Source of the DNA: Methylocystaceae bacterium
GTDB lineage: Bacteria > Pseudomonadota > Alphaproteobacteria > Rhizobiales > Beijerinckiaceae
Direction of reading: 5' to 3'
Assembly (NCBI GenBank): GCA_009921565.1
Contig: RFXM01000003.1
Coordinates: forward strand, 1 to 50,692
DNA length: 50,692 nt
A program made the translations under genes and the position numbers. The first letter of the stretch is position 1. Each line of letters begins with the position of its first letter. The notes below the pieces were generated by a model, which was not told the DNA's origin, did not search any database, and saw nothing but the letters and a program-made list of their open reading frames with translations. Shown here in pieces: positions 42,464 through 48,146 of the stretch.

Positions 42464-43741
42464 ATGAATATTTTGTTGATTGGCTCAGGAGGTCGGGAAC
42501 ACGCCATTGCAAACGCCTTAGCAAAAAGTCCACGCCTGAAACAGCTTTTCATCTCTCCTGGCAATCCAGGAACTGCGCAAGTGGGCGCGAATGTGTCATT
42601 GGATAACGGTAATCATGACGCGGTCCGTCAATTTTGCCAAGAGCGCGCCGTTGAGCTTGTGGTGATTGGACCAGAGCAGCCGCTCATCGACGGATTGTCA
42701 GACGCTTTGGCGAAAGCGGGGATCGCCGTTTTTGGCCCCTCACAAGCCGCCGCCCAACTCGAGGGCTCAAAAGGCTTCACAAAGGATTTGTGTCGCGACA
42801 ATCACATTCCCACCGCTGACTACGCTGCATTCGATAATGAGCAAGAGGCTCTAGCTTATTTGCGCACGAAAAGCGCGCCTATTGTCGTGAAAGCTGACGG
42901 CGTAGCGGCGGGCAAGGGCGTTGTTGTCGCGATGACCCTTGAAGAAGCCCAACAAGCCGTTAGCGCAATGTTTGCTGGCGTCTTTGGCGCAGCGGGGGCA
43001 CAGATTGTTATAGAGGAGTTTCTCTCGGGAGAAGAAGCCTCTTTCTTTGCAATTTGCGATGGCGCCCGCGCGCATCCTTTTGCCACAGCACAAGACCATA
43101 AACGCGTTGGCGATGGCGATACAGGTCCAAACACAGGCGGTATGGGCGCTTATTCGCCAGCGTCGATTATTAGCCCTGCGCTGTCACAACAAGTGATGGA
43201 TAAGATTATTTATCCAACACTCAAAGCGATGCAGGCGCGCGGCGCGCCTTTTTCCGGCATCCTCTACGCCGGATTAATGCTGACCAAAGACGGCCCTAAA
43301 CTCATCGAATATAATGTGCGTTTTGGCGATCCGGAAGCACAAGCGATCTTACCGCGACTAGACGAAGACCTTGCAGGCTTAATGTTTGATTGCGCGCGCG
43401 GAAACCTTCCCATACATCCCCCACAATTTACGCACAACAAAACGCTCACCGTTGTAATGGCTGCGCAAAATTATCCAGATAAACCAGTCACAGGAACGCA
43501 AATTCACAAACTCGAAGAGGCTGAAAAACTCGCTGATATTATTATTACTCATGCTGGCACGCGTCTTGAGAATGGGCAGCTCGTCGCTGCAGGCGGCAGA
43601 GTATTAAATATAACCGCCTCTGCGCCCACAATTTACGAAGCACAGAAGAAAGCCTATGCGGCGGCGCAAAAGATTGACTGGAGGGAAGGATTTTACCGCC
43701 ATGATATTGGATGGCGCGAAGTCTTGCGTGAAAAAGTTTAA
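42464..43741 (+). CDS. purD: Phosphoribosylamine--glycine ligase
   Basis: [61 protein letters not shown]. Confidence 0.97.
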
Positions 43742-43764
43742 AACTATCCGACAGCATTAAAGGT

Positions 43765-43851
43765 AAAAAAAAAGACCGCTGAGTTTCAGCGGTCTGAAGT
43801 CAAGGGAGGAAAACGCCCAAGGAGAGGGCGTGGTCAGATGATGATTCTGAC
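43765..43851 (-). ncRNA. Candidate sRNA 1, suhB/mmgR (alpha-r8)-like: hairpins + UUUUCCUCCCUU + terminator
   Basis: Minus strand: GTCAGA/TCTGAC hairpin (43846-43851/43833-43838), CGCCC-TCTCCTT-GGGCG hairpin (43814-43830), single-stranded TTTTCCTCCCTT, terminator AGACCGCTGA-AAC-TCAGCGGTCT-T9 (43765-43795). 5' end not certain. Confidence 0.65.
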
Positions 43852-44006
43852 TCATGGCGAAATCATGGCTTGAGCGACTTCTGGTTCTCTTTCATGCGAC
43901 GTGTGGTAAATCTGTCACACTTAGGTGAAGCAAATTACGCTTCAGCTCGCGACGCGCGCTTGTGAGAGCTGTCGTGAGAACCGCGCAAGATCGCTTCATC
44001 CACCCA

Positions 44007-44336
44007 TTAAGGTTCAAGACGTCCAATGTTGCGAATGACGGGACCTGTATAATTTTTCTCTTCACGCCAGCATCTTGAGACAAGTCTAATCAGTGGCCAG
44101 CTCATTCCGGGGCGGCAGCCAAACCAGTAGCATTCCGCGTAAAAGGCGTCGCTTTCCGGATTCACCGGTCCCTGATTAACGGCGACCTGAAAGGTGCCGG
44201 TTAATCTGGCGCTGCGATATTCGCCATCGAAGATGTGAATAACGCGCGCGTCGCGCACCTCCTCAAAAGCTATGGGCGTTGCGGTTTTATCGGTGTGCGG
44301 CGTGTCGGGCTGAAATTCATTTTTGTATGGCCCTAC
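44007..44336 (-). CDS. Hypothetical protein; likely start MVGPYKNEF... at 44336 within the longer ORF to 44447
   Basis: Open frame MVGPYKNEFQPDTPHTDKTATPIAFEEVRDARVIHIFDGEYRSARLTGTFQV...; coherent composition, no family recognised. Confidence 0.5.
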   Translation of the reverse strand, partial: VGPYKNEFQPDTPHTDKTATPIAFEEVRDARVIHIFDGEYRSARLTGTFQVAVNQGPVNPESDAFYAECYWFGCRPGMSWPLIRLVSRCWREEKNYTGPVIRNIGRLEP

Positions 44337-44542
44337 CATGCTCTCCCCCCGAAAATTTTTGCTTTCCCTATTACTGGCACAGCGGCCATGGGGAGAAAAG
44401 GGCAAGCGTGATGCGCTTTGGCGGCGCAGAACGCTTGAGCCAGTCATTCAGCTCGCTCTCTTGCTGGAGCCGTGGTCCCCGCGCCCTTTCCTGAACGCCA
44501 TGAGCGTCTCGCGGATTAGACAGCTGGCGCTGATGGACGACG

Positions 44543-44622
44543 AAAAAAGGACCGCTGTCGCCAGCGGTCCAAGTCTAGGGAGGAAAGCTCAGAGGGAATG
44601 AACTAAATAGCTCAATCTGAGC
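44543..44622 (-). ncRNA. Candidate sRNA 2, suhB/mmgR (alpha-r8)-like
   Basis: Minus strand: promoter TTGACT-N16-TAAGAT (44656-44651 / 44634-44629), predicted start about 44622 at hairpin GCTCAGA...TCTGAGC (44622-44587), TTTCCTCCCTAGACTT, terminator GGACCGCTG-GCGA-CAGCGGTCC-T6 (44570-44543). Confidence 0.72.
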
Positions 44623-44628
44623 AGGTGA

Positions 44629-44656
44629 ATCTTATTGTGCATCGCAACATAGTCAA
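44629..44656 (-). promoter_or_regulatory. Sigma70-type promoter for sRNA 2
   Basis: Minus strand TTGACT - 16 nt - TAAGAT. Confidence 0.6.
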
Positions 44657-44701
44657 GCGGATTTCATGCCCATAGCGCTTGATTATTAGGCAATAAAGAA
44701 A

Positions 44702-44718
44702 AATAGGAAATTCCTATT
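44702..44718. promoter_or_regulatory. Perfect 17-bp palindrome, putative operator
   Basis: AATAGGAA-A-TTCCTATT; overlaps the -35 (TTGACC, 44717-44722) of the divergent sRNA 3 promoter. Confidence 0.6.
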
Positions 44719-44744
44719 GACCTATATTCCAACTGCGATAAGTT
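44717..44744 (+). promoter_or_regulatory. Sigma70-type promoter for sRNA 3
   Basis: TTGACC - 16 nt - TAAGTT. Confidence 0.5.
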
Positions 44745-44750
44745 GCCGCA

Positions 44751-44838
44751 CCCGCTGGTAATAAGACTTTGGGTCTACCAACAGCGATTGTCCAAGTCGG
44801 GGAGGAGAAAAGCGGACGCCAGGCGCGTCCGCTTTTTT
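44751..44838 (+). ncRNA. Candidate sRNA 3 carrying SD-like GGGGAGGAG; possible sponge of the anti-SD sRNAs
   Basis: 5' hairpin CGC-TGGT-aata-AGAC-tttgg-GTCT-ACCA-aca-GCG (44753-44786); unpaired CCAAGTCGGGGAGGAG (44792-44807); terminator AAAAGCGGACGC-CAGGC-GCGTCCGCTTTT-TT (44808-44838). Confidence 0.6.
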
Positions 44839-46161: not shown

Positions 46162-47379
46162 TTAAACACTTGCGTAAATATGTTCCCTGACTACTGGGTA
46201 TACTTGACTATCCCATCGCTTACCATTGAAGACGCCATAATGGCCAACCCCAGGCTGCATATAATGTTTCTTACGATAGGGCCTTAACCCTGAGCAAAGG
46301 TCTTGCGCAGCAAGCGTTTGCCCAACTGAGCAAATATCATCACGTTCACCCTCTACAGTTAGCAAAAATGTTTTCTTAATTGCTGAAGGTCGCACGGTAC
46401 GACCTTTATATTTCAGCTGGCCTAGCGCTAATTCATGATTATGAAAAACCTTTTCAATAGTTTCGAGATAAAAGCAGGCGTCTAAATCCATTATCGCAAA
46501 ATATTCCTTGTAGAATTCTTTAATTTGGTCTGCCTTCTCGTGATCATTGCTAATGCGCTTATGGTAGAAATCTGAAAAGGCTTTAGAATGCCGCTCCATG
46601 TTCATACTCATAAATGCGCTTAATTGGATAAATCCAGGATAGACGACGCGACCTACGCCCAACGACGTACCCGGCACCCGCGCAAGCATATTCTGCTTAA
46701 ACCACTCGAGTGATTTTGATGCGGCGAATTTATTGACTGCACTGGGCTCAATGCGCGTGTCAATTGGTCCCGCCATCAATGTTAAACTTGCAGGCTGATC
46801 AGGATCGTCTTCCTCAGCCATGATTGCTGCAGCGACGAGCGATTGAACAGCTGGCTGACAGACAGCAACGACATGCGTCTGACTCCCGATTGTTTTTATG
46901 AATTTGATAATATGCTCAACAAAGCAATCAAAACAAAACAGACCCTGTTCAAGCGGCACATCTCGCGGATTGCGCCAATCGGTAATATAAACATTATGGT
47001 CGCGCAGCAGCGTTTGTATCGTGCCCCGCAACAAAGTCGCAAAGTGTCCCGACATCGGAGCCACGAGCAGGACATCCGGCTCAGACTTGTTATTCTTTTT
47101 ACTAAAACGCCGCAGTGTACAAAATGGCGTCTCAGAGATGATTTCATCCACAATCGGGATTTTCTGCCCAGTTTCTGAGCAGATCTCATAAATTTCATAC
47201 TCGGGCCGGGAATGGGTAAAGCCCGTGAATGTAAGCAGTTCTTGGAATGCCGCCATATGCCGTAAGGGTTCAGCGCGATTGAACCCATGGAGGGATCCCA
47301 GGAAAAGATTGCTTCCTGAAGCCATCACACGCAGGGAATTCGCGAGATCCGCATAGGTTTGATACGCATTGTAAATCAT
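46162..47379 (-). CDS. phaZ: Intracellular polyhydroxyalkanoate (PHB) depolymerase
   Basis: MIYNAYQTYADLANSLRVMA...LLVAPMSGHFATLLRGTIQTLL...VYITDWRNPRDVPLEQG...FDCFVEHIIKFI; HYGVFNGKRW; homologous start at 47379 inside the longer ORF. Confidence 0.93.
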   Translation of the reverse strand: MIYNAYQTYADLANSLRVMASGSNLFLGSLHGFNRAEPLRHMAAFQELLTFTGFTHSRPEYEIYEICSETGQKIPIVDEIISETPFCTLRRFSKKNNKSEPDVLLVAPMSGHFATLLRGTIQTLLRDHNVYITDWRNPRDVPLEQGLFCFDCFVEHIIKFIKTIGSQTHVVAVCQPAVQSLVAAAIMAEEDDPDQPASLTLMAGPIDTRIEPSAVNKFAASKSLEWFKQNMLARVPGTSLGVGRVVYPGFIQLSAFMSMNMERHSKAFSDFYHKRISNDHEKADQIKEFYKEYFAIMDLDACFYLETIEKVFHNHELALGQLKYKGRTVRPSAIKKTFLLTVEGERDDICSVGQTLAAQDLCSGLRPYRKKHYMQPGVGHYGVFNGKRWDSQVYPVVREHIYASV

Positions 47380-47492
47380 GACGCGTTTAAGGATCCAATT
47401 TTCTGCAATTTGAGCAGCAATACCTATGCCAAGAGGATCCCGGCGCGGTACGACATTTGCTCCCTCCCGGAAGGCGAGGATAGGTGAAAAAA

Positions 47493-48146
47493 ATGTCGAT
47501 ACCCACATTAACAATCAGCAGCAAAAATTACTCTTCTTGGTCGCTTCGCGGCTGGCTCATGATGCGAATGGCCGATGTTGAATTTGAGGAAGTGGTTGTT
47601 GATCTTGGGGATGCTTCCGCGCGTGCGGAAATCCTGCTTCTATCCCCTTCTATTCTTGTTCCATGCTTAACTTATGAGGGCAGTAAGATTTGGGACACGC
47701 TTGCGATTGGCGAATTTCTTAATGAACTGCGACCAGAAAAAAAACTTCTACCCAAAGACATGAAGCAAAGAGCGCATTGCCGCTCGATCTCTGGCGAGAT
47801 CCATTCTGGATTTAATGCGCTGCGCTCTGCTATGCCGATGAACTTAAAAGGTAACTTTCCAAAATTTAAACTCTGGTCCAAAGCGCAACAAGACACTGAT
47901 CGCATTTGCGCCATTTGGAAAGAATGCTTAAATATGTATGGCGGTCCCTTTTTATTTGGTGAGTTAACGCTCGCAGACGCAATGTATGCGCCCGTTGTAA
48001 CACGATTTAAAACTTATGACGTGAAATTAGATCGCTTGTGTGAAAATTATCGCGACCGAATTCTTGACTGGCCGCCATTGCGTGATTGGACAATTGAAGC
48101 GCTGCAGGAAGAGGAGGCTATTGAAGAACTCGAGGTGGAATTCTAA
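47493..48146 (+). CDS. Glutathione S-transferase family protein
   Basis: MSIPTLTISSKNYSSWSLRGWLMMRMADVEFEEVVVDL; IWDTLAIGEFLNE; start chosen at ATG 47493. Confidence 0.9.
   Translation: MSIPTLTISSKNYSSWSLRGWLMMRMADVEFEEVVVDLGDASARAEILLLSPSILVPCLTYEGSKIWDTLAIGEFLNELRPEKKLLPKDMKQRAHCRSISGEIHSGFNALRSAMPMNLKGNFPKFKLWSKAQQDTDRICAIWKECLNMYGGPFLFGELTLADAMYAPVVTRFKTYDVKLDRLCENYRDRILDWPPLRDWTIEALQEEEAIEELEVEF

Follow-up and report, generated by a model that had tools for sequence, protein, structure and literature searches.

A small RNA encoded next to two alpha-r8 (suhB/MmgR) sRNA genes in a methane-eating Methylocystis-type bacterium is most likely, with a probability of about 0.7, an RNA sponge for MmgR that would act in the manner of CrfA. 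This third RNA very probably represents a real, new and genus-restricted RNA family. The window, i.e. the whole stretch of 50,692 nucleotides that was analysed, comes from a 73% complete draft genome to which, among named genomes, metagenome assemblies of Methylocystaceae/Methylocystis are closest. The sRNA block is preceded by purD (42464-43741, +), and a gene of the PHB depolymerase type (PHB_depo_C; 46162-47514, -) is found downstream, in its vicinity.

The motif AAGTC-N1-2-GGGAGGA is present three times on the plus strand of the window (43797-43810, 44571-44584 and 44794-44806), with the coordinates and strands that had been predicted from the sequence, while its chance expectation in 100 dinucleotide shuffles was 0.00 on average. 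At the first two sites, a scan of the minus strand listed terminators at 43795-43773 (10 bp, T8) and 44570-44549 (9 bp, T6). At the third, the plus-strand scan listed only a 5-bp piece (44821-44834), and folding revealed the full stem at 44808-44838 (+), with at least 13 pairs followed by TTTTTTATTT. Scan and folds are therefore in agreement with the predicted orientation of the terminators, leftward at the first two sites and rightward at the third. The description of the locus as a head-to-head arrangement within one intergenic block was only partly accurate: only the third RNA and copy 2 face each other head-to-head, copy 1 follows copy 2 on the same strand, and a conserved ORF (44007-44447, -) stands between the two copies. 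This small ORF, which has no Pfam match, displays 84-95% amino acid identity in two related genomes and, to judge by its substitutions, is coding since the nucleotide differences cluster at third codon positions (64 of 85; 5, 5, 35 and 6, 5, 29 in the two comparisons).

Copies 1 and 2 are new members of the known suhB/mmgR (alpha-r8) family. The original prediction had proposed this resemblance, and the covariance search bore it out, both copies matching the RF00519 model over its full length (1-77) and above its gathering score of 41 bits (cmscan, Rfam 15). Copy 1 (43758..43836, -; 53.3 bits, E 3e-8) has a linker UUUUCCUCCCUUGACUU, a 5' hairpin as in the RF00519 model and a 10-bp terminator with T8 (fold z -6.7). 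Copy 2 (44535..44604, -; 42.6 bits, E 1.6e-5) has a linker UUUCCUCCCUAGACUUGG, a 9-bp terminator (fold z -4.0) and a diverged 5' hairpin, in which four positions of the 5' helix are marked as non-standard against RF00519 and which is formed via a different 6-bp stem. Sequence and folds concur in that both copies possess the single-stranded UUUCCUCCCU linker and a Rho-independent terminator. In their 5' hairpin, UUUCCUCCCU linker, GACUU, Rho-independent terminator and length of about 65-75 nt, these RNAs are thus much like other RF00519 members, from which they differ by the rebuilt hairpin of copy 2 and by their location: they form a tandem near purD, whereas alpha-r8 genes usually occur singly, next to a gene for an N-formylglutamate amidohydrolase. 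The family was found in 56 of the 61 genomes searched, and only copies 1 and 2 exceed the threshold in the window's own draft genome. An unusually strong expansion is seen in two small drafts of ~2.1-2.2 Mb, G027 and G013, with seven and six matches, respectively.

The third element is of a different nature. A reading of it as a minus-strand mmgR was rejected, RF00519 giving no match at its site on either strand in the window's own genome, even at E <= 10; the element is not an alpha-r8 RNA. Nor was it assigned to any other Rfam family, the only hits (L20_leader, AgrB and Atu_C9) being below threshold. The candidate sponge RNA, about 91 nt with inferred ends, maps to 44748..44838 (+), scores 92 bits with the covariance model R1, of whose training set it was itself a part, and has a fold z of -3.5. 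It comprises a core CCAAGTCGGGGAGGA (44792..44806, +), complementary to the linkers of both alpha-r8 copies, and an intrinsic terminator (44808..44838, +). A weak, possible promoter was recognized by eye (TTGACC-16-TAAGTT; 44717..44744, +), which is kept in the two nearest relatives and absent from the consensus-scan list.

R1 identified 15 members (one of them decayed) in nine of 39 genomes of the genus, nine of the 15 having formed its training set. All share CCAAGTC-N0-2-GGGAGGA, which is complementary to the core of MmgR. Apart from this segment, the terminator and a loop of the GGAUYYAACC type, the sequences have diverged, including in their 5' part. An apical 5' hairpin shows whole-pair changes in some members (UUGG/CCAA, UUUCGG/CCGAAG, CUCCGG/CCGGAG); it is the best local fold in only part of them. 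Evidence for a conserved RNA structure comes from the terminator stem, in which seven of 12 pairs display compensatory changes and pairing is kept in 95% of the cells. The number of compensatory cells, in an alignment that had been fitted to this very stem, was 23 versus 6.8 +/- 2.5 in shuffles (none of 500 reached 23), and slid controls gave 1-5 or fewer. These changes exclude for the third RNA the possibility, named in the original prediction as its refutation, that the sites are a single non-RNA repeat with no conserved pairing. As predicted, the third RNA is a separate entity of opposite sense and complementary sequence, one which belongs to a conserved family. The plus strand is favoured because its U-run is kept in 14 of the 15 members while that on the minus side is not.

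The complementarity to alpha-r8 extends over the linker and its 3' flank (GACUU/GACUUGG). In the predicted complex with each copy, 13 bp are formed with one bulge, for an energy gain of 16.8 and 17.5 kcal/mol, compared with 6.8 +/- 3 kcal/mol in shuffles that keep the terminator, only extreme ones reaching such values. By raw RNAduplex energy, the complex with copy 1 is no better than the shuffles (-23.7 vs a mean of -26.7). The core hardly varies, so that sponge and MmgR offer no co-variation from which the pairing could be proven. Genomic linkage points to the same partner. Eight of the 15 members adjoin an alpha-r8 gene, six divergently, of which three share one locus (G000, G008 and G027a) and three lie elsewhere (G003, G027b and G027d), and two convergently, both in G031. 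Near the other seven, some of which are close to contig ends, no alpha-r8 gene was detected, and most of the genomes with alpha-r8 genes lack the third RNA.

Could the third RNA have another role? It might act in trans like any ordinary sRNA, using GGGGAGGA to pair with pyrimidine-rich sites in mRNAs, the match to MmgR being incidental or a consequence of descent from an inverted mmgR. Its core could also pair with CCUCC-type sites, and CrfA itself was initially thought to pair with mRNAs (PMC12559287). We nevertheless regard this as rather unlikely, for the match runs through AAGUC in all members, which lies outside any Shine-Dalgarno/anti-Shine-Dalgarno logic, and the linkage to alpha-r8 genes in more than half of the members argues in the same direction. 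That linkage, together with the conserved CCAAGUC half, would also be left unexplained if the RNA titrated the anti-Shine-Dalgarno of the 16S rRNA instead of MmgR, a highly improbable scenario in spite of the GGAGG contained within GGGGAGGA.

A functionless element, either an inverted mmgR copy in decay or a bidirectional terminator, is also improbable. In favour of such readings, the third element has the same core in inverted sense, the copy in the window could weakly end minus-strand transcripts (UUUUCU) and the U-run is gone in one relative (G014, 28.9 bits). Against them stand the lack of any RF00519 match at the site, the one-sided retention of the U-run and a stem that is maintained by compensatory changes. 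Finally, a role of GGGGAGGA as the Shine-Dalgarno for a small ORF is scarcely credible: several relatives have an ATG ~10 nt past GGAGG, within the terminator stem (CGGATGC), but the triplet is ACG (CGGACGC) in the window and in several others, and the stem is kept while the start codon is not. This candidate ORF was accordingly rejected.

The candidate sponge seems to be confined to a narrow group of bacteria. A DNA search with the third RNA found clear relatives in the same genus only. In a class sample of 385 genomes, the window alone scored above 30 bits with R1 and no convincing relatives emerged, and in 298 genomes of the family R1 gave only 22-26 bits outside the genus, the hits inspected being coding-like or single stems. 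Core patterns returned almost nothing beyond the genus in class and order samples, and a plasmid search yielded no match. A collection-wide pattern scan returned 107 stretches, judging by their titles mostly outside Alphaproteobacteria, those identified as true being from Methylocystaceae; two alphaproteobacterial matches that were inspected (L130 and L145) have no terminator. Among the papers that could be searched, none on Methylocystis sRNAs was found.

At one other locus, most genomes of the genus carry AAGTCGGGGAGGA. It forms the anti-MmgR core of a conserved putative RNA gene of ~230 nt with a strong terminator, located upstream of trxA (L056:1315-1600, -; also in L048-L070 except L066, and in L239-L248). 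This element has no Rfam match, recurs in another genus of the family and was not found in the window's own incomplete genome. In its consensus fold, an invariant GUCC/GGAC hairpin has AAGUCGGGGA as its loop. The element is possibly a second sponge, or else the segment may play a structural part. A broader scenario, which we put forward only tentatively and consider doubtful as it stands, is that Methylocystis-type bacteria possess a self-contained, duplicating cassette made of an alpha-r8 sRNA and its own divergent anti-sRNA, most of them having in addition the trxA-upstream RNA, i.e. two types of sponges against one sRNA family, with an origin independent of CrfA.

How would the sponge work? 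The two MmgR sRNAs would repress mRNAs by pairing of their UUUCCUCCCU linker with Shine-Dalgarno regions. The divergent neighbour, if transcribed, would offer, ahead of its terminator, the complementary stretch CCAAGUC-GGGGAGGA and pair in the cell over ~13 bp with the alpha-r8 linker, probably on Hfq, thus blocking the seed. This would probably accelerate alpha-r8 decay and relieve the targets, for which PHB genes or others of carbon storage and uptake are plausible candidates. The MmgR of Sinorhizobium restricts how much PHB accumulates and is itself under the control of NtrC and AniA/PhaR (PMC8401924, PMC12542648), and it is this known role, along with the nearby depolymerase gene, that by analogy suggests the PHB link. 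If true, this would add a new family to a kind of RNA sponge recently proven in Caulobacter and would mean that sponging of alpha-r8 is not peculiar to Caulobacter and is found in methanotrophs too, often with the sponge linked to its target genes. It would also provide a natural example of co-evolution, after gene duplication, between an sRNA and its antagonist, and a testable entry to carbon-storage switching in methane oxidisers.

The closest known system is CrfA of Caulobacter crescentus. RIL-seq, structure probing and compensatory mutants demonstrated in 2025 that it sequesters the alpha-r8 sRNAs SisA-D via their 10-mer, on Hfq and during carbon starvation (PMC12559287). Like CrfA, the third RNA has a G/A-rich segment complementary to the alpha-r8 10-mer and is predicted to stand on its own as a small RNA and to neutralise several siblings. 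Unlike CrfA, it is often encoded beside an alpha-r8 gene, and the two are likened by predicted pairing and anatomy rather than by sequence; the third RNA was not classified as a CrfA homologue because R1 found no convincing relative among the sampled genomes of the class. A more distant parallel is QrrX of Vibrio cholerae, a sponge of the Qrr siblings (cited in PMC12559287) that likewise antagonises a multi-copy family of sRNAs, although the RNAs and the bacteria are unrelated.
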